IMG/VR virus record: IMGVR_UViG_3300005529_000348
Coordinates: 1 to 22,998 of that record
Strand: one strand, 5' to 3'
DNA from: a virus
Length of the DNA stretch: 22,998 bases
This document shows positions 4,505 to 22,998 of this stretch, one piece after another. The notes under the pieces were generated by a model, which did not search any database, was not told the origin of the DNA, and saw only the letters and a list, made by a program, of their open reading frames with translations. Numbering within the stretch: position 1 is the stretch's first letter; every line of letters begins with the position of its first letter. The position numbers and the translations under genes are program-made.

Positions 4505-4768
4505 ATGCCGCTCGAGCCCGGCTCCTCGCAGGAGGTCATCTCCCGTAACATCGCGACCGAGGTCCGCTCCGGCAAAGACCCGAAGCAGGCCGCCGCGATC
4601 GCCTACTCGAAAGCGCGCGAAGATGCCGACCACGACCACGTCACCGTTGGAAAGGGACCGCTCTCCCGCGTGGTGTCCGTGGGGATGATGATGGACGCCA
4701 TCCAGTGCGCGGCAGATCAGGTCGCGGACCTCGCGATGCGCGTCGACGCTCTCATGGCGAAGCGATGA
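4505..4768 (+). CDS. Small phage protein with PLxxGxS...GKxxxQAxAIA motif
   Basis: An 87-residue protein. Its N-terminal half ([19 protein letters not shown], then [16 protein letters not shown]) matches a motif common in small phage proteins, often near head genes and sometimes fused to head-maturation proteins. The biochemical role of the motif is not known to me. Residues about 55-87 form a second helix ([20 protein letters not shown]). The start has GGGGGGAA eight to nine bases upstream. It ends in ATGA overlap with the Nudix-protease gene, so the two are translationally coupled. That coupling and the motif's usual neighbourhood suggest a part in capsid assembly or maturation; this is inference. 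Confidence 0.7.
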
Positions 4769-6696
4769 CCAAGGCCGCAGGAATCCTTTTCGTCACCGCG
4801 GACGGCAAGGCGCTGTTCCTGAAGCGCGGCCCGTCCGCGCCGGACTGCGCTGGCTGCTGGGACTTCCCCGGCGGCGGACGCGAGGGCGACGAGACCGCCG
4901 AGCAGACCGCGCTGCGCGAAGCGATCGAGGAGGTCGGGAAAATCCCGGCCGGCACCAGAGTTTTCCACACCCGAACCAGATCACCCCGGCCGGAAACGGT
5001 CGGCGTGGGGGTCGGCGCGGCGCCTTTACTCCCTGTTCAGGCCGCCGCGCCGCCTTCCCCCGTTCCGTCCCCTGCGATGAGCCCGGACGTCGACTTCACG
5101 ACGTTCGTCCAGCGGGTGCCGGAGGAGTTCGTCCCGGACATCAACGACGAGCACGAGGGATGGGCATGGGCGCCGATCTCGTCTCCCCCGGAGCCGCTTC
5201 ACCCGGGCTGCAGAATCGCGCTGGAACGCTTGTCGATGGACGAGTTAGGGGTCGCGCGGGCCATCGCCGACGGCAGGCTGATCTCGCCGCAGCGATACGA
5301 GAACATGACGATGTTCGCGATCCGGATCACGGGGACCGACGTCGCCTACCGGAACGCGATCGACGAGTTCGTCTACCGCAACCCCGACAACTATCTGACC
5401 GATGAATTTCTGGCCCGGTGCAACGGTCTCCCGGTGGTCTGGCTGCGCCGCTCCGGCGACGAAGAAGGCTTCCATCCGAAGGGCTCGCTGCTCAACAGCG
5501 AGGAGTTCGGCGAAAGAGTTGTAGGATCGATCATGTTGCCGTATATTGCCGGCAACGAAGTCTGGGGCGTCGCGAAAATCTTCGACGATGCCGCAGCCGC
5601 AGAGATGGAGGCGAAGCAGCTCTCGACGTCGCCGGCGGTGTTCTTCCGAAACCTGTCCGACAACGCGAAGCTGAAACTCGAGGACGGATCGACGCTCCTG
5701 ATCGAAGGGAAGCCGAGCCTCCTCGACCACGTCTGCATCTGCGAGCAAGGGGTTTGGGACAAGGGTCGCGATCCGACCGGCGTCCGTTCCGAAGCACGAG
5801 GGGACTCAGCTATGACGCCAGAGGAAAAGGCCAAGGCCGACGCGGAAGCCAAGATGAAGGCGGACGCCGAAGCGGAGGAGGCCAAGAAGAAGGCCGACGC
5901 TGAGAAGGAAGAAAAAGAAAAGGCGGATGCGGCCAAGAAGGCCGACGAGGAGAAGGACAAGAACCCCTTCGCCGACGCCATGAAGTCGATGGCCGACAGC
6001 GTCGCTAAGATCGGCGACGCGGTGGTCAAAATCGGCGCCCGCGTCGACTCGATGGAGGACGACGCGAAGAAGAAGGCCGACGCCGAGGCCGAGGAGAAGC
6101 GCAAGGCCGGCGACCCCGAGCAGCTCAAGGCCGACAAGTCCCGCAAGGACGCCGAGGAGAAGGCCGCCAAGGAGAAGGCGGACGCGGAGGAGGCCGAGAA
6201 GAAGAAGGCCGACGCCGCCGCCCTCAAGACGGTCTCCGACCGCATCGACGAGGTCAAGGGCATGCTCCCGAAGCAGATGACCGACAAGGACTTCCACGCC
6301 GTGGCCGACAGCCAGGCGCGCGCGGACTCGGTCTTCTCGCTGTTCGGCGAGCGCGCTCCGATCCCGCTGCAGGGCGAGACCGCCTCGCTCTACGACCGCC
6401 GCGTCGCGCGCCAGCTCGTCAAGCACAGCCCGACGTGGTCCAAGATCGACATCACCTCGGCGGCGTTCGCCGACGACGCCGCCTTCGCCATCGTCCGGGA
6501 CCAAGTGTTCGCGGACGCCCAGAAGGCGGCGATGAGCCCGTCCGCGCTGCCGAACGGTGGCCTGCGGATGATCTCGAAGCCGAGCGGCGGTCATATTATC
6601 AACGAGTTCCACGGCGATCCGGACTCGTGGATGGGACCGATGGCCGGCGCGACCCGCCGGTTCGTCACCCGCATCAACGAGCGGCAGCCGAACTGA
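4765..6696 (+). CDS. Nudix + DUF2213-like head maturation protease + scaffold polyprotein
   Basis: A 643-residue multidomain head protein. Residues 1-60 begin a Nudix fold with a perfect Nudix box at about 37-59 (G-x5-E-x7-REAIEEVG; E52, E55 and E56 metal-binding). A Pro/Ala-rich stretch at about 73-107 interrupts it before the fold resumes ([14 protein letters not shown]). Residues about 175-335 resemble DUF2213-type prohead proteases: H237 in FHPKG, S287/S289 in QLSTSPAV and H322 in LLDHVCIC would give a His-Ser-His set like family S78. Residues about 350-485 are a Lys/Ala/Glu/Asp coiled-coil typical of scaffolds, followed by a C-terminal domain to 643. The start overlaps the upstream stop (ATGA). 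Expected role: assemble the procapsid, then cleave head proteins. What the Nudix part hydrolyses is unknown. Confidence 0.85.
5812..6696 (+). CDS. Nested in-frame scaffold protein (internal start)
   Basis: An internal ATG at 5812 (Met350 of the polyprotein) is preceded by AGGGGA at 5799-5804 with a seven-base spacer, one of the better SD sequences in the window. It falls exactly at the junction between the protease domain and the charged coiled-coil. Starting there gives a 294-residue protein holding only the scaffold helix and the C-terminal domain. This copies the arrangement of lambda C/Nu3 and related phages, where a free scaffold is made from an in-frame start inside the protease gene, giving excess scaffold over protease. 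The SD and domain boundary are seen; actual use of the start is inferred. Confidence 0.6.
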   Translation: MTPEEKAKADAEAKMKADAEAEEAKKKADAEKEEKEKADAAKKADEEKDKNPFADAMKSMADSVAKIGDAVVKIGARVDSMEDDAKKKADAEAEEKRKAGDPEQLKADKSRKDAEEKAAKEKADAEEAEKKKADAAALKTVSDRIDEVKGMLPKQMTDKDFHAVADSQARADSVFSLFGERAPIPLQGETASLYDRRVARQLVKHSPTWSKIDITSAAFADDAAFAIVRDQVFADAQKAAMSPSALPNGGLRMISKPSGGHIINEFHGDPDSWMGPMAGATRRFVTRINERQPN

Positions 6697-6737: not shown

Positions 6738-7628
6738 ATGACCGCCCAAGTCGCTTTCAACCCCTACGTCCAGACCGCCGGCAACGCCGGGCTGTTCAAC
6801 GTCTCCTCGAAGGGTCTCCGCCAGGGCACCGCCTACCCTGACCCGGCGACCCGGTACGCTCTCCGGACCGGCGTGCTGGACGTCAACGAGACGCTCCCGA
6901 TGTGGGGCGGCGTCGGCATCTATGAGAACATCCCGACCTACGGGGCGGCGGACCCGAACACGACGCTGGGCCCGGTCGTCGGCCGCGCGAACGGCCTGAC
7001 CGGCTCGAAGCAGCTCGCCGGCTTCTCGGTCTTCGACCAAGCCTACGGCATGATCACCACGCCGCAGAGCAACGTCCCGCTGATCGGCAGCTACGGCCAG
7101 GTCATGAGCTACGCGCTCGGCAGCAACGCCCGCATCGCGGTCAAGTGCGACGCCGCGCTGGTGGACCTCTGGGGCCTCACGATCCAGTCCCAGGTCTCGT
7201 GGGACTTCGTGAACCAGCTCCTCGTGCCGTATCTCGGCACGCTGACTATCTCGTCGGGCACCTACAACAACACCACGGGCGTGGTCGTGCTGACCATGTC
7301 GGCGCCGATCACCTTCGACGCGGGCGACGCGATCGTCGTGTCGAGCCTGACCGGCACCGGCGCCTTCGCCAGCCTGGACGGGACCTTCACGTCGATCCCG
7401 ACGACCAGCGGCAGCACGGTGACCTACAACGCCGGCGCGGGCCTCGGCGCCGCGACGATCACCGGCGGCTCGCTGACCCTCGGCTCCGGCGCGTCTTCGG
7501 CGCTCCCGGTCAAGGTCCTCGACGTCCAGGCCGGCAACTGCGAGACGGTCTCCTACGACCCGGCGACCGGCTACGCGAACTACAACTTCGACGGCAACTG
7601 CGCGGTGATCCAACTCACCAAGCCCTGA
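6738..7628 (+). CDS. Head accessory/decoration-type protein preceding capsid
   Basis: A 296-residue protein just before the major capsid gene, where many myoviruses encode a decoration, cement or second capsid protein. Residues 1-165 (GVLDVNETLPMWGGVGIYE, then FSVFDQAYGMITTPQSNVP) and about 255-296 (LPVKVLDVQAGNCETVSYD, then NYNFDGNCAVIQL) read as one fold. They are interrupted by a Thr/Ser/Gly-rich beta segment at about 167-248 (GVVVLTMSAPITFDAGDAIVV, then LDGTFTSIP) that resembles domains inserted in other virion proteins here. The ATG follows a CGGAGACCGAAAG leader with GGAG at SD distance. The structural role is likely; the exact function is unknown. Confidence 0.6.
   Translation: MTAQVAFNPYVQTAGNAGLFNVSSKGLRQGTAYPDPATRYALRTGVLDVNETLPMWGGVGIYENIPTYGAADPNTTLGPVVGRANGLTGSKQLAGFSVFDQAYGMITTPQSNVPLIGSYGQVMSYALGSNARIAVKCDAALVDLWGLTIQSQVSWDFVNQLLVPYLGTLTISSGTYNNTTGVVVLTMSAPITFDAGDAIVVSSLTGTGAFASLDGTFTSIPTTSGSTVTYNAGAGLGAATITGGSLTLGSGASSALPVKVLDVQAGNCETVSYDPATGYANYNFDGNCAVIQLTKP
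7236..7481 (+). repeat. Dispersed beta-domain copy 1 (in head accessory protein)
   Basis: Encodes residues about 167-248. The pattern is GVV-x-LTMSAPI, then a GDAIVV strand, a DGTF turn and STVTYNAG, which matches the layout of the other copies (G-x-VTAT, GxxVxI, NGTF, TFTY). It separates two parts of the host protein that otherwise read continuously. Divergent from the rest; assignment is by pattern only. Confidence 0.5.
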
Positions 7629-12524: not shown

Positions 12525-13619
12525 ATGCCTCAGAATCCCACCAAGTCCACCTTGTTCGTCACCCAGATCGTCGCCGGCAACGGCATCGACATCACGCCGA
12601 ACGAAGGCACCGGCATCGTCGAGATCGCGGTCTCCGGCGGCACCGAGAACCCGGTCTCCATCACCGGCGGCGCGAACCCCTTCCCCATCACGGGCGAAGC
12701 CGCGGCTAACGCCACGGCGGCTGGCGGCGACGTCACCCTCACGGGCGCGGCCGGCGGCGCGACCAGCGGGCGGGGCGGCAACATCGGCCTGACCGGCGGT
12801 GCGGCGTCCGGCGGCAACAGCGCGGGCGGCACCGCTCCGATCACGGGTGGCGCCGGCCACGGCAGCTCGGCCGGCGGCGCGGCTCCCGTAACCGGCGGTG
12901 CCGGCGGAGCCACGGGCGCTGGCGGCGCCGCATCCCTGACGGGCGGCGCGGGCGGCGCGACCTCCGGGGCCGGCGGCGCGGCCACCGTCCAAGGCGGCGC
13001 GGCCACGGCAGGAAACTCCTCGGGCGGTCAAGCCTCGGTCGCCAGCGGCGCCAGCACCGGAACGGCGGCGGGAGTCTCGACGCCCATCACCGGCGGCGCG
13101 GGCGGGACCGGCGCGGGCGGCAACGGCGGCTCGGTCCCGATCACGGGCGGCGCGGCCGGCGCCGGCTCGAATGGAAACGGCGGCGACGTCGTCCTCGGCG
13201 GCGGCGCGCTGGACGGCACGGGCGCGGCCGGCAACATCGTCGAGCGCAGCGTCAAGCTCGTCCACCAGGGCAACCCGACGGCGGCAACGACCTCGGCCAC
13301 GCTCACCGCTGCTCAGGTCCTCGCCGGGATCATCACGGTGAACCAGGGAGCGGCCGGCGCCTCGGCGCAGCAGCTTCCGGCGGCGACCGCGATGGACACG
13401 GCCTTGCCGAACTCGGCGGCCGGCGACGCCTTCGACTTCTCCGTCATCAACATCTCGACCGTCGCGGCCGAGTCCGCGTCGCTCACCACGAACACCGGCT
13501 GGACCCTGGTCGGCGACATGGACGTGCAGGCGAACTCCGCCGCGACCACCAAGTCGGCCGGCCGCTTCCGCGCCCGGAAGACCGGCACCGGAGCCTGGGT
13601 TCTCTATCGCCTGTCGTGA
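12525..13619 (+). CDS. Glycine-rich repeat protein, putative fibre/adhesin or decoration
   Basis: A 364-residue protein in three parts. Residues 1-66 are a beta-rich N-terminal domain (TQIVAGNGIDITPNEGTGIV). Residues about 67-234 hold about ten glycine-rich units of 15-19 residues on the pattern GG-x-x-(hydrophobic)-TGGAGGATSGA. Residues about 238-364 form a C-terminal domain (SAQQLPAATAMDTALPNSA, then FSVINISTVAAES and FRARKTGTGAWVLYRLS) of a type I recall from phage fibre-like proteins. Glycine-rich repeats of this kind can form polyglycine-II or collagen-like rods, as in the phage S16 adhesin Gp38. A head fibre, neck whisker or receptor-binding role is inferred. SD GGGGGAG precedes the ATG. 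Confidence 0.6.
   Translation: MPQNPTKSTLFVTQIVAGNGIDITPNEGTGIVEIAVSGGTENPVSITGGANPFPITGEAAANATAAGGDVTLTGAAGGATSGRGGNIGLTGGAASGGNSAGGTAPITGGAGHGSSAGGAAPVTGGAGGATGAGGAASLTGGAGGATSGAGGAATVQGGAATAGNSSGGQASVASGASTGTAAGVSTPITGGAGGTGAGGNGGSVPITGGAAGAGSNGNGGDVVLGGGALDGTGAAGNIVERSVKLVHQGNPTAATTSATLTAAQVLAGIITVNQGAAGASAQQLPAATAMDTALPNSAAGDAFDFSVINISTVAAESASLTTNTGWTLVGDMDVQANSAATTKSAGRFRARKTGTGAWVLYRLS
12723..13226 (+). repeat. Tandem glycine-rich coding repeats
   Basis: About ten imperfect units of 45-57 bases encoding GGxxx(I/V/L)TGGAGGA-type repeats, with many copies of GGCGGCGCGG-like DNA. Unit lengths are multiples of three and vary by one or two codons, as expected from slippage or unequal exchange within a coding repeat. 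Not a CRISPR: the units are contiguous and have no unique spacers. Confidence 0.75.
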
Positions 13620-13661: not shown

Positions 13662-15299
13662 ATGACGAACCCGATCGTCAACATCCAGGTCAGCCAGCAG
13701 CAGGCGCCGACCCCGTCGAAGCTCCAAAAGAGCGGGGCCATGCTCTCCCAGGGCGCGACGAACACGTCGCCCGGGACGTTCACGCTGCTCACCAAGGCGG
13801 CCGACCTCACGGCGATCCTGAACGGCGCGCTCGCCCTCGCCACGATCACGTGGTCGGCGAACGTCGCGACGGCGACCGCCAGCGCGCCGCACGGCATCCC
13901 GGTCGGCGAGAGCGTCCTCGTGACGATCGCCGGAGCCACGGCCGCCGCCTACAACGGCACTTACCTCGCGACCAGCACCGGAACGACGACCTTCACCTAC
14001 TCGCTGCTCACGAACCCGGGCGGCTCGGCCTCGGTGCCGGGCACCTACACGCTCGAGGACGTCTCCGAGCTCAACGCGATGGTGACGTCGTTCTTCGGCC
14101 AGGGCTCCGCGCAGGCGGTGTGGGTCCTCGAACTCGGAGAGGGCGACGTCGCGGCCGGGGTGGCGTTCCTGACGAGCTGGATCGCCGCCAACCCGAACAC
14201 GTTCTACAGCTACCTCGTGCCGCGCTTCTGGGACGGCGTCTCCCAGTTCGTGACGTTGCTCCAGAGCTTCAACGGCCTGGCGGCGAAGACCTACTTCTTC
14301 ATCACCACCACGCTGCAAAACTGGCGGCTGTACCCGAACACGGACAAGTGCGCGCTCGCTCTGATCGAGGCGCCGAAGTACGGGGTGTGGCCGGCGAACG
14401 TCCTGACGGCGGCGTCCTACAGCGGTGGGATCGTCACGGCGACCACGACCTCGGCCCACGGCGTCGTCGCCGGCCAGTATTTCACGATCTCCGGCATGAC
14501 GCCGTCGGGCTACAACGGCACGTTCCTCGCGCTGCAAGGCACGACGGGCTCGACGCTGAAATACGCCCTGGCGTCCGACCCCGGAGCCGAGTCCGTCCTC
14601 GGCACCTTGGTGGCGAGCCTCTACTCGTCGACCGGAGTCCCGTCGACCGAGTTCTCGATGGCGGCGGTCTTCCAGGTCACGCTGAACTACGCGCCGGGGC
14701 CGACCAACCGGATGACGACGCTGAACCTCGCCTACCTGTTCGGGGTCACGCCGTTCCCGACTCAGGGAAACGCGGCGCTGCTGTCGACGCTGAACGCCGC
14801 GAACATCAACGTGGTCGGCACGGGGGCGGCGGGCGGCATCTCGTCGACGGTGCTGATCGGCGGCAACACGCTCGACGGCAAGCCGTTCCGGTACTGGTAT
14901 TCGGTCGACTGGGCGCAGATCAACGTCCAGTTGAACGTCAACGCGGCTCTGATCAACGGGTCGAACAACCCGCAGAACCCGATCGACTACAACCAGAACG
15001 GCATCAACGCGCTCCAGCAGGTCGCGGCGACCACGATGGCGACCGGCGTCTCCTCCGGGTTGGTGCTGAACCCCGTCAAGCAGACGACGCTGACCGCGGC
15101 GGACTACACCCAGGCGGTGGACAAGGATACCTTCGGCGGCACGACGCTGGTCAACGCCGTCCCGTTCGCCAGCTACGTCGCGCTCAACCCGAACGACTAC
15201 GGCTCGGGCATCTACAACGGCTTCTCGATCAACTACACGCCTCTGATCGGTTTCGAGGAGATCACCTTCAACATCAACGTCTCCAGCTTCGCGGGCTGA
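13662..15299 (+). CDS. Contractile tail sheath protein (DUF3383 type)
   Basis: A 545-residue protein resembling the DUF3383 tail sheath family, whose contraction drives the tube through the host envelope. The N-terminus (IVNIQVSQQQAPTPSKLQKS) and the C-terminal half (LNYAPGPTNRMTTLNLAYLF, then YWYSVDWAQINVQLNVNAAL, and PLIGFEEITFNINV) are typical. Two beta-domain insertions interrupt it, at about 58-130 and 248-319; without them the protein would be about 400 residues, a usual size for the family. The next gene is the tube, as expected. The start has AGGTCC upstream. Confidence 0.85.
   Translation: MTNPIVNIQVSQQQAPTPSKLQKSGAMLSQGATNTSPGTFTLLTKAADLTAILNGALALATITWSANVATATASAPHGIPVGESVLVTIAGATAAAYNGTYLATSTGTTTFTYSLLTNPGGSASVPGTYTLEDVSELNAMVTSFFGQGSAQAVWVLELGEGDVAAGVAFLTSWIAANPNTFYSYLVPRFWDGVSQFVTLLQSFNGLAAKTYFFITTTLQNWRLYPNTDKCALALIEAPKYGVWPANVLTAASYSGGIVTATTTSAHGVVAGQYFTISGMTPSGYNGTFLALQGTTGSTLKYALASDPGAESVLGTLVASLYSSTGVPSTEFSMAAVFQVTLNYAPGPTNRMTTLNLAYLFGVTPFPTQGNAALLSTLNAANINVVGTGAAGGISSTVLIGGNTLDGKPFRYWYSVDWAQINVQLNVNAALINGSNNPQNPIDYNQNGINALQQVAATTMATGVSSGLVLNPVKQTTLTAADYTQAVDKDTFGGTTLVNAVPFASYVALNPNDYGSGIYNGFSINYTPLIGFEEITFNINVSSFAG
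13833..14051 (+). repeat. Dispersed beta-domain copy 3 (sheath, first insertion)
   Basis: Encodes sheath residues about 58-130: NVATATASAPHGIPVGESVL, then AAAYNGTYLATST and TTTFTYSLLTNPGG. Shares the V-TAT-PHG-VG-V-I-G-YNGT-TFTY skeleton with copies 4 and 5. It would probably form a knob on the outside of the sheath subunit. Confidence 0.7.
14403..14618 (+). repeat. Dispersed beta-domain copy 4 (sheath, second insertion)
   Basis: Encodes sheath residues about 248-319: GGIVTATTTSAHGVVAGQYF, then MTPSGYNGTFLAL and STLKYALASDPG. The DNA shares a 16-base identical stretch, GTCACGGCGACCACGA (14433-14448), with copy 5 in the plug gene (19275-19290). Confidence 0.7.
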
Positions 15300-15305
15300 C
15301 GCACC

Positions 15306-15752
15306 ATGGCCGGAAACCCACTCATCGACCAAGGCGTCCTGAACCTTCTCAAGGCGTCGGCGGTCTGGAACGACCATCCGGAGCTGAACGTCACGGCGTC
15401 GTTCCTCGACCGGGACGGCATCACGCTCCGCCTTGAGGGCGAGGCTTCGCTCCAGCACAACACGATGACGGGGCTCGTGCAGTCGCCGCAGCCCTACCTG
15501 CCGGTGAGCATCGTCATCGCTCTGCTGCGGACCCAGCCGCTGTCGGACGCCTACAAGACGCAGATGGAGAACTCGTCGCTGATCGGCGCCGGCACGATCT
15601 GGCCCGACGTGCAGGGCGGCGGCCTGTCGTCCTACCCGTTGCTCAACATGTCGATCCAGAGCGTCGGCGAGCTGGTGCTCAACGGCACGACGCCGATCTA
15701 CGGTGTGACCTGCCGCGGATATTATTTGGTCAATTCGAATCTGTGGAATTGA
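15306..15752 (+). CDS. Tail tube protein
   Basis: A 148-residue protein matching myovirus tail tube proteins in size, order and sequence: LLKASAVWNDHPELNVTASF, then TMTGLVQSPQPYLPVSIVIA and ALLRTQPLSDAYKTQME, ending YYLVNSNLW. Stacked hexamers of it would form the rigid inner tube contracted through by the sheath. It begins six bases after the sheath stop with a weak SD, so it is likely coupled to the sheath. Its last codons lie in an unusually AT-rich patch that carries a stem-loop. Confidence 0.82.
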   Translation: MAGNPLIDQGVLNLLKASAVWNDHPELNVTASFLDRDGITLRLEGEASLQHNTMTGLVQSPQPYLPVSIVIALLRTQPLSDAYKTQMENSSLIGAGTIWPDVQGGGLSSYPLLNMSIQSVGELVLNGTTPIYGVTCRGYYLVNSNLWN

Positions 15753-15779: not shown

Positions 15780-16493
15780 GTGAAGATCGACAAGCGTCTC
15801 AACTTCGTCGTGCCGATCTACGGCGACGAGCAACCCCTCCTCGACGACAAGCGGCAGCCCGTCGTGAAAGACGGCCGGCCCGTCATGCACGAGCCGGTGG
15901 TCGCGCACGTCCACTCGACGCCGCTCTCGGTTGAACTTGTCGACCGCTATTTCATGACGCTGGCGCAGACCTACTCCGCGATCTTCTCGCGCGGCCTCGG
16001 CATCGCCGGCGGCCCCGCGATCGCCATGAGGCTTCTGCGCCAGATCGCGATGGAGAACAACGCGTGGGCGGACGGCCCCGACGGCTCTCCCGGCGTCGAG
16101 CGCGGCTTGGTCGAGGAGGTCCGCCGGCTGACGAACGTCGCCGCGCTGGTCGACGGCTCCTGGCAGCAGGTTCCGCTCAAGGTCGCCGCGCAGCGCGGCG
16201 TGATCGACGACGAGGACGTCTCGGAGGTGGAGAACGCCATCGTTTTTTTTATCTGCATCTCTGCGGTTCTAAACCGGTCGATGCGGCGGCCGATGCTGGA
16301 AGCTGCTGCAGAACTGTGGGGGGCGCAGATCACGTCGTCCAGTTGTTCGGAGTTGATGAGTTCATTGCTGAGGTCGAGAGGGACCGGCAATTCTGGCGAG
16401 ACGTCCCCTGCACCGGGACCTGCGGCGCCGTCCCGCGGCGGAGGGTCTGCGAATGCGACCTTGGACGGGAAACCGTCGTCGGTGCCAGTTTAG
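15780..16493 (+). CDS. Tail assembly chaperone, short form
   Basis: A 237-residue protein starting at GTG 15780, preceded by AGGGAG at SD distance. It lies between tube and tape measure, where tail assembly chaperones (lambda G/GT type) are encoded. The N-terminal domain is KIDKRLNFVVPIYGDEQPLL, with HVHSTPLSVELVDRYFMTLA after it; the middle is helical. The zero-frame C-terminus (RRPMLEAAAELWGAQITSSS, then a Pro/Ser/Gly-rich tail) is plausible as a native end. An eight-T run at 16243-16250 lies inside it and allows the -1 shift described in the next entry. Expected role: coat the tape measure and recruit tube subunits. It is not part of the finished virion in well-studied phages. Confidence 0.75.
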   Translation: MKIDKRLNFVVPIYGDEQPLLDDKRQPVVKDGRPVMHEPVVAHVHSTPLSVELVDRYFMTLAQTYSAIFSRGLGIAGGPAIAMRLLRQIAMENNAWADGPDGSPGVERGLVEEVRRLTNVAALVDGSWQQVPLKVAAQRGVIDDEDVSEVENAIVFFICISAVLNRSMRRPMLEAAAELWGAQITSSSCSELMSSLLRSRGTGNSGETSPAPGPAAPSRGGGSANATLDGKPSSVPV

Positions 16494-16606
16494 ATTGGGC
16501 GGCGAACTCCGGCTTCCCTGCCCTGATGAAGGGAACGGTGCTAGAAACGTCGGCGCACGAGTTCCGGCGGACCGTCGACCGCCGGCCGAGGGCCGGAGGC
16601 GCCTGA
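15780..16606 (+). CDS. Tail assembly chaperone, -1 frameshift long form (join 15780..16250, 16250..16606)
   Basis: A ribosomal slip of -1 at T_TTT_TTT (16244-16250) moves translation into a second open frame that continues to the TGA at 16604-16606, giving about 275 residues (157 from the first frame plus 118). Support: the heptamer is in the correct phase; only the -1 frame is open (the other frame stops within ten codons); the second frame stays open for over 350 bases; and it ends one base before the tape measure ATG, removing an otherwise unexplained 114-base gap. The extension contains FGVDEFIAEVERDRQFWRDV and is moderately Cys-rich. This mirrors the lambda gpG/gpGT system, in which the extension binds the tube protein. 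Direct proof of the product is lacking. Confidence 0.7.
16244..16276 (+). promoter_or_regulatory. Programmed -1 frameshift site
   Basis: The slippery heptamer TTTTTTT is at 16244-16250, in phase as T_TTT_TTT within an eight-T run, the longest homopolymer of this kind I notice in this GC-rich window. A small hairpin, CGGTT (16264-16268) and AACCG (16272-16276) around CTA, starts 14 bases downstream and could stimulate slippage. The hairpin is weak; the slip site itself is strong. Confidence 0.72.
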
Positions 16607-16607
16607 C

Positions 16608-18296
16608 ATGACCGTCAAGAGCATCATCGACGTCGACATCACCGGAAAATATCCGCAGTTCTTCAAGCTGTTCGAGAGCTACCAGAAGGCGCTGAAGTCG
16701 CAGCCCGCCGCCTGGAAGCTGGTGACCGAGAAGATCGACGGTACGAAGACCTCGTTCGACAAGGTCGTCGACAAGATGGTCGCGGCCAACGTCCAGGCCC
16801 GCCTGATGGAGAAGGCGCAGGAGCGGGCGAACCAGCTCACGCGCACCGGCGCGGACCGGTGGGCCGCCATGGCGCGGTCTTCCCGCGATTTCGCCGCCGG
16901 CATCCGCGACGCGACCTCCAACCTGATCCGGATCGGAAGCTACATCGGGCTCGGTGGCGGTCTGATCGGCGCCGGCAGCTTGTTCGGGCTCGACCGTTTG
17001 GCCGGGGGCGTTTCGGCGACGCGGCGCTCCGGGCTCGGGCTCGGCATCGGCTACGGCGACCAGCGCGCGTTCTCGACGAACTTCGGCCGGCTGGTGGACC
17101 CGGAGAGTTTCCTGTCCGGGGTCGCAGGGGCGAAGCTCGACGTCACCCGCCGCGTCGGGCTGCTCGGCGCCGGGCTCTCGGAGGGCGAGATCGGCGGCGA
17201 CACCGGGGCCACGGCCGTCGCGCTGCTGAAGCGGCTGAAGTCGATCGCCGACACGACGAACCCCGCGCTCTACGCGCAGGTCATCCAGTCCCGCCGGCTC
17301 GACCAGTTCACGTCGCCGGAGGATCTTCAGCGGCTCCGCAACACCGGTCCGGCGGAGTTCAACCGGCTGGTGTCGTCCTACGGCAAGGACCGCTCCAGCT
17401 TCGCGCTCGGCGGCAACATCGCGGAGCGGTGGCAGGACTTCTCCACCCAGCTCAGCCGGGCCGGCGAGAACATCGAGGCGGTGTTCGTTCGAGGCCTGAC
17501 GCCGTTGGTCCCGGGGATCACGAAGCTGTCCGACTCGGTGGCGAAGGCCGTCGAGACGCTGCTCTCCAGCGACAAGCTGAAGGGTTGGCTCGAGCAGTTC
17601 GGGGTGGGGATCGAGAAGTTCGCGAAGTACCTCGGCAGCGACGACTTCGAGACGAAGGTGAAGTCCGTCGTCGACAACGTGGCCAAGCTCGGGTCCGCGA
17701 TCGGCTGGCTGCTCGGGAAGCTGCCGGGCGAGGCCACCAACGTGGCCGGAGCCACCACGGGGGCCGTGATCGGCGGAGCCCTCGGCGGCCTGCCGGGGGC
17801 GGCGGTCGGCGGCTACGTCGGCAGCAAGCTCCCGGTGACGCAGACGCTGTGGAACCTGCCGTTCGGAGCGATCGGCGTGACGGCGTCTCCGTTCAACAAC
17901 CCGGGCAACATCCGTCCGCCTGGACGATCCACAGGATTCTTGGCGTTCCCGACCCCGGAGGCCGGCGTCAAGGCGATGGCGGAGCAGCTCCGCATCTACG
18001 GGCGCCGCGACGGAATCAACAGCGTCGGCGGCATCGTGTCGAAGTACGCCCCGGCGACGGAGAACAACACGGCGGCCTACATCGCCGACGTCTCCAAGAA
18101 GACCAGCTTCGGCGCCGGCGACAAGCTGGATCTCAGCAATCCCGACGTGCTGGCGAAGGTGCTCTCGGCTATGATCTCGCACGAGCAGAAGCCCGGCAGC
18201 TACGACCGCTACAAGGACGCGAAGATCGTGGTCGAGGTCATCAAGCCGACGGGCTCCGACACCGCCGTGTCGGTCAACGGCGTGAAGGGGAACTGA
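16608..18296 (+). CDS. Tape measure protein with C-terminal P5-like peptidoglycan-associated domain
   Basis: A 562-residue protein, short for a tape measure; at about 0.15 nm per residue the tail would be roughly 80 nm. Residues 1-105 are helical and charged, followed by a glycine-rich hydrophobic stretch (SYIGLGGGLIGAGSLFGLDR, about 111-130), more helices, then a second hydrophobic Gly/Ala-rich stretch at about 376-408 (VAGATTGAVIGGALGGLPGA). These could insert in host membranes during ejection. Residues about 428-527 (FNNPGNIRPPGRSTGFLAFP, then YAPATENNTAAYIADVSKK) resemble the structural protein P5-like domain seen in phage tape measures and virion lysins, probably acting on peptidoglycan. 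The ATG is one base after the frameshift ORF stop, with GGAGGCG upstream. Confidence 0.8.
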   Translation: MTVKSIIDVDITGKYPQFFKLFESYQKALKSQPAAWKLVTEKIDGTKTSFDKVVDKMVAANVQARLMEKAQERANQLTRTGADRWAAMARSSRDFAAGIRDATSNLIRIGSYIGLGGGLIGAGSLFGLDRLAGGVSATRRSGLGLGIGYGDQRAFSTNFGRLVDPESFLSGVAGAKLDVTRRVGLLGAGLSEGEIGGDTGATAVALLKRLKSIADTTNPALYAQVIQSRRLDQFTSPEDLQRLRNTGPAEFNRLVSSYGKDRSSFALGGNIAERWQDFSTQLSRAGENIEAVFVRGLTPLVPGITKLSDSVAKAVETLLSSDKLKGWLEQFGVGIEKFAKYLGSDDFETKVKSVVDNVAKLGSAIGWLLGKLPGEATNVAGATTGAVIGGALGGLPGAAVGGYVGSKLPVTQTLWNLPFGAIGVTASPFNNPGNIRPPGRSTGFLAFPTPEAGVKAMAEQLRIYGRRDGINSVGGIVSKYAPATENNTAAYIADVSKKTSFGAGDKLDLSNPDVLAKVLSAMISHEQKPGSYDRYKDAKIVVEVIKPTGSDTAVSVNGVKGN

Positions 18297-18297
18297 C

Positions 18298-19056
18298 GTG
18301 TCGATCTCGGCCGGCCTCGCCGCCTTCAAGATCAGCTTCCAGCTCTCCCCGATCATCCTGACCGGCGGCATCGCCGCGTCGATCCCGGGCGGCGCCTTGC
18401 CGATCATCGCGCTGACCGAGGCGCTGAACTTCTTCGACGGGATCTTGTCGGGGGCGACCGGGCTCGAAGACCTCGACAACTTCTTCGCCAACTTTCACCC
18501 GCTGCCGGGCGCCACGCTGATCGACCAGTCCGTGGGCGAGTACCCGTTCGCGAACCAAGCCGTCGCGGCGAACGCGGTGATCCGCAACCCGAACGTGATC
18601 TCGCTCCGGATGATCTGCCCGGCGCGCAACGAGCTCGGCTACGCCGTTAAGCTGGCGACGATGACCGCGCTCCAGGCGACGCTGGCGCAACATAATGCCT
18701 CCGGGGGCACTTATGTGGTCGCGACCCCATCGTTCTTCTTCACGGACTGCTTGCTCCTGCGGATGACGGACGTGACGCCGGAGCGGTCGAACCAGGCGCA
18801 GGAGGTCTGGCAGCTCGACTTCCGGAAGCCGCTGCTGACCCTGCAGGACGCCGTGCAGTCGCAGAACAGTCTCATGGGGAAGATCACCTCCGGCGTTCCG
18901 CTGGGCTCCGGCACGCCGGCGTGGTCCGGCCTCGGGCCGCAGGTCGGAAACCCGGCGAGCCTCGGCACCATCGGCACGATGCCATCGGCGGCGAACCCGG
19001 CCGGTTCGCTGTCGTCGTCGCCTCAGCAGGTGTTCTCCGCCGGGGGCTCGCAATGA
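18298..19056 (+). CDS. Tail/baseplate protein, GTG start
   Basis: A 252-residue protein starting at GTG 18298, two bases after the tape measure stop and preceded by AAGGGGA at six bases. The N-terminal 40 residues are hydrophobic (FKISFQLSPIILTGGIAASI). The middle (LIDQSVGEYPFANQAVAANA, then VISLRMICPARNE and LLLRMTDVTPERSNQAQEVW) has the look of a baseplate or tail-tip adaptor. The last 60 residues are Gly/Ser/Pro-rich and flexible. The position between tape measure and plug/hub fits a tube-baseplate initiator. I do not match it to a named family; the stop overlaps the next start (ATGA). Confidence 0.65.
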   Translation: MSISAGLAAFKISFQLSPIILTGGIAASIPGGALPIIALTEALNFFDGILSGATGLEDLDNFFANFHPLPGATLIDQSVGEYPFANQAVAANAVIRNPNVISLRMICPARNELGYAVKLATMTALQATLAQHNASGGTYVVATPSFFFTDCLLLRMTDVTPERSNQAQEVWQLDFRKPLLTLQDAVQSQNSLMGKITSGVPLGSGTPAWSGLGPQVGNPASLGTIGTMPSAANPAGSLSSSPQQVFSAGGSQ

Positions 19057-19544
19057 CGACGTTCGTGAACTTCCAGCCGACGCAGACGCAGCCGTTCCAG
19101 TTCCAGGCCACACTCGACGGGACGTCGTACAACGTCGTCGTGACGTGGTCGCTGTTCGGCGCCCGCTTCATGGCGAACGTCTTCGCCCTGGACGGAACGC
19201 TGGTCGTCTCCCGCGCGCTGGTCGGGACCGACGGCGGCAAGCAAATCCAGTCGCTGTCGTGGAGCGCGGGCGTTGTCACGGCGACCACGATCGCCCCCCA
19301 CGGGTGGAGGGTGGGACGTCCGGTCGCTCTGACGGTCGCCGGGGCGTCGCCGTCCGGTTACAACGGGGCGTTCGAATGCACGCCGAACTCCGACACGGAG
19401 TTCACCTACAACGTCGCGACGAACCCTGGAGGAGCCATGGTCTTCGGCTCGGCCACGTTCCTCGTCGACCTCGTCGGCGGCCTGTTCTCGACGTCGACGA
19501 TGATCTACAGGGCCGGCACGCGGCAGTTCGAGATCAGCCCGTGA
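19053..19544 (+). CDS. Baseplate plug protein (Pam3 gp18-like) with inserted beta domain
   Basis: A 163-residue protein starting at ATG 19053, overlapping the previous stop (ATGA). The N-terminal part (FQFQATLDGTSYNVVVTWSL, then FGARFMANVFALDGTLVVSR) is characteristic of the small baseplate plug family described from cyanophage Pam3, which seals the tube at the baseplate. The C-terminal part (FLVDLVGGLFSTSTMIYRAG, then TRQFEISP) completes it. Between them, about residues 65-136 are an inserted module (VVTATTIAPHGWRVGRPVAL, then SPSGYNGAFECTP and TEFTYNVATNPGG) like those in the sheath. Without it the protein would be about 90-100 residues, usual for the family. Confidence 0.75.
   Translation: MTTFVNFQPTQTQPFQFQATLDGTSYNVVVTWSLFGARFMANVFALDGTLVVSRALVGTDGGKQIQSLSWSAGVVTATTIAPHGWRVGRPVALTVAGASPSGYNGAFECTPNSDTEFTYNVATNPGGAMVFGSATFLVDLVGGLFSTSTMIYRAGTRQFEISP
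19245..19460 (+). repeat. Dispersed beta-domain copy 5 (baseplate plug)
   Basis: Encodes plug residues about 65-136, with GVVTATTIAPHG, SPSGYNGAF and EFTYNVATNPGG. It carries the same 16 bases (19275-19290) as sheath copy 4 and the same GYNG turn, which suggests recent common descent inside this genome or between close relatives. Confidence 0.7.
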
Positions 19545-21744: not shown

Positions 21745-22998
21745 TTGGCGGACTTTCCGGTCGTCCTGACCACATCCGGCGCCGTGCCGACGCCGCCGGC
21801 CGTCATCCGCGCGGAGATCGAGGCGCTCGTCGCCTCGACGAACCCCGGATACACCGCGAACCTGCCCGGCTCGCTGATCGAGGACGTCCTCAGCACGCAG
21901 GTCGCCGGCATCGCGGAGTGCGATTCGGCGCGCGTCGAGCTTCTCAACTCGCTGACCCCGTTCGGGGCGAACGACTTCCTGCTGTCGGAACTTGGCCAGA
22001 TTTACATCGGGCCCGGCTCCGCTCCGGGCACGCCGACGAACACCTCCGTGTTCGTGCGCTTCTTCGCGCAAGACGCCGAGACCTCGGCCGCGCTCGCCGG
22101 ACAGGTCATCACGCGCGGGTTCACGGTCGGCGACGGGACCTACCAGTACGTCGTTCAGGACGACGGCCTGACCGACGACAGCGGCTTGGTCACGCTCTAC
22201 TGCATCTCGCCGACCCCTGGAATCTGGACGGTGCCGGCCGGGACAGTCACCAACGTGGTCACTCAGCAGCCGACCGGAGTGACGATCTCGTGCTCGAACC
22301 CGGCGTCGGGGATCGTCGCCGCGGACGCGGAAAGCTCCGAGGCCTACCGAGCGCGCGTCCTCCAGGCCGGGCAGGCGATCGCCACCGGGATCGTGACGTT
22401 GCTCAAGACCGCTCTCGGCAACGTCTCCGGGGTCCAGCAGCGTCTCATCTCGGTCCGGCAGCAGGGCCAGCTCTGGGAGGTCATCGTCGGCGGCGGCGAT
22501 CCTTACGAGGTCGCCGGCGCGATCTTCGACTCCGGGCTCAACATCGCCGGCCTGACCGGATCGATCCTCTCCGTGACGGCGATCACCCAAGCCAACCCCG
22601 GCGTGGTGACCACCGACCTCAACCACGGCTACTCCGACGGGCAAGACGTCACGATGACCGGGATCGTCGGGATGACGCCGCTCAACGGCGTGCCTGTGAC
22701 GATCACCGTCGTCGACGAAAAGAGGTTCAGCATCGGCGAGGATACCCGGTTCCTGCCGGCCTACATCAGCGGCGGCGTGTGCTCCCCGAACCTGCGGAAC
22801 GTGACCGTCAACATCAACGATCCTCCGGACATCTACTCGGTGACGTTCGTCTCGCCGCCGACCCAGACCGTGACGATCGCCGTGGCGTGGAACACGACGG
22901 CGCCGAACTTCACGTCGCAGGCCGCGGTCGCGCAGCTCGCCTCCGCCGCGATCGCGAAATACGTCAACGCGGTCACGGTCGGCGCGCCCCTCAGCCTC
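21745..22998 (+). CDS. Baseplate J-like protein (partial, TTG start)
   Basis: 418 codons lie inside the window and the frame is open at the right edge. The TTG at 21745 is chosen because GGGGGAG (21730-21736) is at SD distance and the translation starts ADFPVVLTTSGAVPTPPAVI; no ATG or GTG lies between the upstream stop and this point in frame. Family-like blocks: NPGYTANLPGSLIEDVLST, VELLNSLTPFGANDFLLSEL, YQYVVQDDGL and WEVIVGGGDPYEVAGAIFDS. J-like proteins form the wedge arms of the baseplate. A beta-domain is inserted at about residues 273-346 (VVTTDLNHGYSDGQDVTM), between GLTGS and NVTVNINDPP. The C-terminus is not in the window. Confidence 0.8.
   Translation, partial: MADFPVVLTTSGAVPTPPAVIRAEIEALVASTNPGYTANLPGSLIEDVLSTQVAGIAECDSARVELLNSLTPFGANDFLLSELGQIYIGPGSAPGTPTNTSVFVRFFAQDAETSAALAGQVITRGFTVGDGTYQYVVQDDGLTDDSGLVTLYCISPTPGIWTVPAGTVTNVVTQQPTGVTISCSNPASGIVAADAESSEAYRARVLQAGQAIATGIVTLLKTALGNVSGVQQRLISVRQQGQLWEVIVGGGDPYEVAGAIFDSGLNIAGLTGSILSVTAITQANPGVVTTDLNHGYSDGQDVTMTGIVGMTPLNGVPVTITVVDEKRFSIGEDTRFLPAYISGGVCSPNLRNVTVNINDPPDIYSVTFVSPPTQTVTIAVAWNTTAPNFTSQAAVAQLASAAIAKYVNAVTVGAPLSL
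22561..22783 (+). repeat. Dispersed beta-domain copy 6 (baseplate J-like protein)
   Basis: Encodes residues about 273-346: PGVVTTDLNHGYSDGQDVTM, then TPLNGVPVTITVVDEKRFSI. It keeps the VVTT-x-HGYSDG-V-TG-LNGVP-FSI order of the family, with a more divergent turn. Confidence 0.65.

Follow-up and report, generated by a model that had tools for sequence, protein, structure and literature searches.

A probable programmed -1 ribosomal frameshift at an eight-T run in a putative phage tail assembly chaperone gene with a long dual-coded overlap

Does the gene that precedes the tape measure gene in this phage DNA encode one tail protein or two? The question arose from a preliminary description of the window (the whole stretch of 22,998 bases analyzed here, whose record is that of a virus fragment), which proposed a programmed -1 frameshift in a tail assembly chaperone gene. 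PHROGs and Pfam assigned genes of the window to portal, tail sheath, tape measure (with a C-terminal lysozyme-like part), baseplate hub and baseplate J functions, a set indicating a contractile-tailed phage. The tail sheath gene (13662-15299, + strand, as are the other elements of the locus described below; phrog_205, 3.9e-28) is followed by a putative tail tube gene (15306-15752), assigned from its position between the sheath and chaperone genes and matching phrog_6566 (2.7e-41), a family of unknown function. Directly downstream are the ORF under study (15780-16493) and the tape measure gene (16608-18296; phrog_2276, tail length tape measure, 2.8e-24; phrog_873, 4.6e-35), which has a transglycosylase-like C-terminal region and a homologue in all eight IMG/VR relatives tested. 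The ORF had no Pfam hit, and its putative chaperone role is suggested by gene order, the flanking genes being the phrog_205 sheath and the phrog_2276 tape measure.

The structural genes of the window showed some further features. A module of about 80-100 aa (..GVVTATT..PHG...G..V.I.G..PSGYNGTF..) is repeated in several structural ORFs: twice in 13662-15299, in 18921-19544, in 6738-7628 and possibly in 21745-22998, a stretch of which was called E1_FCCH by Pfam. Sheath residues 54-151 aligned with the 18921 ORF at 38% identity (E 1.5e-18), residues 248-324 did likewise (2e-10), and the 6738 ORF aligned with sheath residues 256-345 (5e-6). Alignments of the sheath to two relatives (G002 and G003) split at the second module stretch, as if it were absent there. 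The module may represent a mobile domain that decorates proteins of the virion. Between the genes on the portal side and those on the capsid side lies a 663-aa ORF (4705-6696) with a NUDIX domain at its N-terminus (PF00293, 6.7e-13) followed by a lysine/alanine-rich coiled-coil-like stretch, and 12525-13619 encodes a 364-aa glycine-rich repetitive protein (GGAGGATSGAGG...) without a Pfam family.

The zero frame of the putative chaperone gene starts with GTG at 15780, stops at 16491-16493 and encodes a 237-aa product with a conserved N-terminus (MKIDK). It contains a run of eight T (16243-16250), read in the zero frame as GTT (16242), TTT (16245) and TTT (16248) followed by ATC, so the heptamer T_TTT_TTT at 16244-16250 has the phase required for a tandem -1 slip, as had been claimed. 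The preliminary description was also correct in that only the -1 frame stays open: from 16250 it runs for 118 codons to a TGA at 16604-16606, whereas the +1 frame has four stops within the overlap. A single base (16607) separates the -1 stop from the tape measure ATG at 16608, again as described. The two frames overlap in the window for 80 codons plus the zero-frame stop (16251-16493), about 240 nt.

The slip-site run is the only T-run of at least 7 in the whole window, which has 67% G+C. In the 14 other genes of the window phenylalanine is encoded by TTC 161 times and by TTT twice (2/163), and GTT accounts for 15 of 362 valine codons; with this codon use Val-Phe-Phe would be spelled GTT TTT TTT with a probability of about 6e-6. 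The slip site is not due to chance. Within the window by itself, the open -1 frame says little, since it was obtained with a probability of about 0.6 (0.61) by synonymous redraw and of 0.16 by permutation within the overlap. Comparison with relatives was therefore needed, and it is conservation that makes the case.

Homologous loci were collected from 4 IMG/VR contigs (30-56% identity) and 14 phage records, from 72 and 47 further IMG/VR loci, for which the Chronis and Rac-SA53 homologues, respectively, served as queries, and from E. coli prophages; peptide-pattern searches of genome collections found no relatives. Laboratory E. coli W also carries a homologous prophage (WFL_RS07635). TTTTTTT was present at the same place and in the same phase in 111 distinct sequences, the window included, down to about 30% identity. 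The run was of 8 in 104 of these loci and of 7 in the other 7, and the base 3' of it was always A (111/111). The preceding codon was GTT, ATT, GCT, TGT or ACT, with T as its final base in 111/111, and a T ending before two phenylalanines is not demanded by protein selection. The -1 frame was intact in all 111 heptamer loci, with 93-118 codons (64 in L059, which is cut by the contig end), whereas the +1 frame had at least one stop in each. The end of the -1 frame usually reaches 11, 4 or 1 bases past the start of the tape measure gene. These results bear out the earlier view that the site is selected for in a GC-rich genome. A missing T-run, or a -1 frame interrupted by stops, in close relatives had been named as evidence to the contrary; both the heptamer and the intact frame were retained throughout the 111 loci, and there were exceptions of two kinds beyond them. 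Four further loci carry G_TTT_TTT, a one-base change leaving a run of 6, and keep a full -1 frame of 107 aa. In two others (L096 and L149) the zero frame is broken upstream and the T-run is retained; in L149 the run is of 9 T and the -1 frame is also broken near its end.

The same comparison bears on two other ways in which a T-run could give rise to this arrangement. The run is a homopolymer within a metagenomic contig, and a sequencing or assembly error could have split what is truly one continuous gene. This is scarcely credible, since 111 distinct loci, taken from many studies, from isolates and from complete E. coli genomes, all have the same phase, and since both frames are conserved (see below), so that neither end can be spurious. 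Alternatively, RNA polymerase could add one U at the T8 run, and the edited mRNA would then be read into the -1 frame. Slippage of this kind occurs in bacteria at runs of A or T (cited in PMC3711429, PMC5009743), and a run of eight is long enough to raise the suspicion. On the other hand, such slippage would be expected to keep the run at about nine or more A or T with no need of a codon phase, whereas the runs of intact loci were of 6-8, never of 9 or more, and the phase for tandem slippage was always kept. That the exact phase persists while the run falls to 7, or to 6 with an in-phase hexamer, makes transcriptional slippage an improbable explanation, and favors a slip by the ribosome.

The effect of the overlap on the evolution of both frames was determined in two ways. 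In 10 of 10 pairs the alignment of the -1 overlap scored 5.0-11.4 standard deviations above redraws synonymous in the zero frame, none of 500 redraws reaching the observed score. Zero-frame third positions were variable in 88 of 90 codons upstream, as against 45 of 76 and 35 of 62 in the overlap of two close clades (Fisher test, 1.7e-10 and 9e-11); the clade sets comprised 42 and 58 sequences, which are kin within each clade, so that columns are not independent events. The least variable positions in the overlap were the zero-frame first positions, which are the second positions of the -1 frame. Suppressed variation at third positions, with the lowest variation at first positions, is the pattern expected if both frames are read. 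The aligned -1 products share the motif YG..F..[ED][VI][ED]..R.[YF]WR...L.WAA..GF....SA.EFR, whose LDWAA...EFR part lies 3' of the zero-frame stop in the window and is thus not a shadow of the zero frame. The zero-frame C-terminus is kept as well, most loci ending in [IVL]P[SVAG]. These substitution patterns indicate that protein-level selection acts on both frames, and the overlap of 53-80 codons (about 160-240 nt) is under dual constraint over an unusually long distance. Conservation of both frames in relatives, a check that the preliminary description had suggested, was therefore observed, and its claim of two heavily constrained C-termini in fully overlapping frames holds.

Two local features of the C-termini were also noted. 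The [IVL]P[SVAG] ending (16482-16493) is kept although the preceding tail is variable and disordered, and is perhaps a short binding motif. In the -1 extension, at about 16400-16465, the window and one other locus (L002) have a cysteine-bearing insert (CTGTCGAVPRRRVCECD and CACERKARTCECD, respectively) that is absent from most relatives and possibly binds metal.

Selection on the -1 frame could also be explained if it were a gene in its own right, located downstream and translated from a start codon of its own, and no fusion were made. The Rac-like group does have an ATG one codon past the slip, a short CDS is annotated in this region of RothD, and phrog_14324 spans 97 positions, roughly the length of the extension by itself. 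However, no start is conserved (the slip is followed by TAT CTG CAT in the window), conservation of the -1 frame sets in at the slip codon itself, with an invariant Tyr, and the T-run would require another explanation. We therefore consider a separate gene very unlikely, though somewhat less so than an assembly error.

The locus thus combines an in-phase slip sequence, a shifted ORF reaching the tape measure start and conservation of both products, as frameshifted chaperone genes do. We conclude, with a probability of about 0.88, that a programmed -1 ribosomal frameshift yields short (237 aa) and long (275 aa) tail assembly chaperones from this one gene. The frameshift put forward in the preliminary description is supported by conservation in 111 loci; the ribosomal mechanism and the chaperone function are inferred. 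The simplest reading is tandem slippage of two tRNA-Phe on U_UUU_UUU. Most ribosomes would complete the zero frame and release the 237-aa protein. A minority, with tRNA-Phe in both the P and A sites on T_TTT_TTT, would slip back by one base in tandem, re-pair perfectly on UUU UUU and read on in the -1 frame to give 275 aa (157 shared and 118 new), with one base left between its stop and the tape measure gene. If both forms are expressed as proposed, the lambda gpG/gpGT pair suggests a division of labor in which the short one would coat the tape measure and the long one bring in tail tube subunits. In E. coli a synthetic U_UUU_UUU promoted far less frameshifting than did A_AAA_AAG (PMC5009743); a low shift rate would fit a product ratio like that of lambda, 30:1 as cited in PMC5009743.

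Elements that might stimulate the shift were also sought. No conserved downstream stem or pseudoknot was found (MFE z -2.2 to 1.2 over 17 loci), and the 97-nt fold of the window (z -1.7) was rejected as a stimulator since it is not shared by other loci. Shine-Dalgarno-like pairing showed no excess over synonymous nulls (mean P 0.47). The upstream GGAGGTG of the window and GGAGGT of L003-L005 and L100 were likewise discarded, the loci overall not exceeding those nulls.

The zero-frame product matched phrog_11810 (2.6e-36) over residues 40-210, in frame across the slip (residues 155-157), and the -1 product (16250-16606) matched phrog_14324 in the window (1.3e-6) and in 13 of 13 aligned members. 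Both PHROGs entries are given as unknown function. The AF2 model of the zero-frame product had a pLDDT of 82.6 and was good up to residue ~201, with the slip inside helix 144-163, whereas that of the extension was poor (56.6). Since the slip falls inside a confidently predicted helix, frameshifting would swap the C-terminal part rather than merely add to it. About 80 zero-frame residues, some 45 of them confidently modelled, are replaced; according to the model, 118 new residues would take the place of a folded part (~158-201) and a disordered tail. We regard it as about an even chance that frameshifting in this way exchanges the C-terminal part of the chaperone, giving two alternative C-termini from one DNA stretch, and does not append a domain.

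Sequence searches of the PDB with both frames gave nothing significant. The zero-frame model had only weak matches there (best Foldseek E 0.86, best Z 2.6; Foldseek and VIA), and the low-confidence extension model had none in a Foldseek search. Among BFVD predicted structures, matches to proteins named tail assembly chaperone were few and weak (E 0.17-1.6).

These results provide a likely function and the missing fusion product for two protein families, both of unknown function, with members in many enterobacterial prophages and metagenomic phages. The long, doubly constrained overlap offers a good natural example of dual coding, and a test of whether the T part must add to the end of the G part or may replace it.

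The arrangement resembles that of P2, where E+E' is made at a TTTTTTG slip site in a gene flanked by those for the tail tube and the tape measure protein (PMC3091744, PMC3931495). Both have a contractile tail, the same gene position and a -1 shift on a T-run, and E' also runs into the tape measure gene; on the other hand, E' reaches 37 nt back into E by these papers, as against ~160-240 nt here, and the PHROGs scan gave no protein-family link to P2 E. The run at the slip is T6G in P2, T7G or T7C in Smp131 and xanthomonad prophages, and T7 or T8 followed by A here. In Pakpunavirus/Vandenendeviridae, which are also myophages with a poly-T slip motif and a -1 frame conserved in all genomes, the chaperone gene has an invariant GTTTTT and an extension unannotated in databases (PMC12846349). 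With TTTTTTG in P2, T7G in Smp131 and GTTTTT in Vandenendeviridae, there is clear precedent for a T-run shift in the chaperone of a myophage; our literature search found no paper naming the exact heptamer together with tail assembly. The direct homologues of both frames are phrog_11810 and phrog_14324 (the group of Rac-SA53, Chronis/Certevirus, QDWS and Yersinia vB_YenM_06.16-1), which differ in being entered as two unrelated families, the fusion being unannotated in all records examined (phage records and E. coli prophages). Lambda G/GT likewise has two products with a shared N-terminus, a -1 shift, the same gene order and proposed short-major and long-minor roles. However, the lambda slip occurs close to the 3' end of g, so that GT mostly adds a domain, whereas here about 80 zero-frame residues are replaced. 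The locus is thus a well-supported further case of the known frameshift-chaperone type, and the trait that distinguishes it is the long dual-coded overlap.
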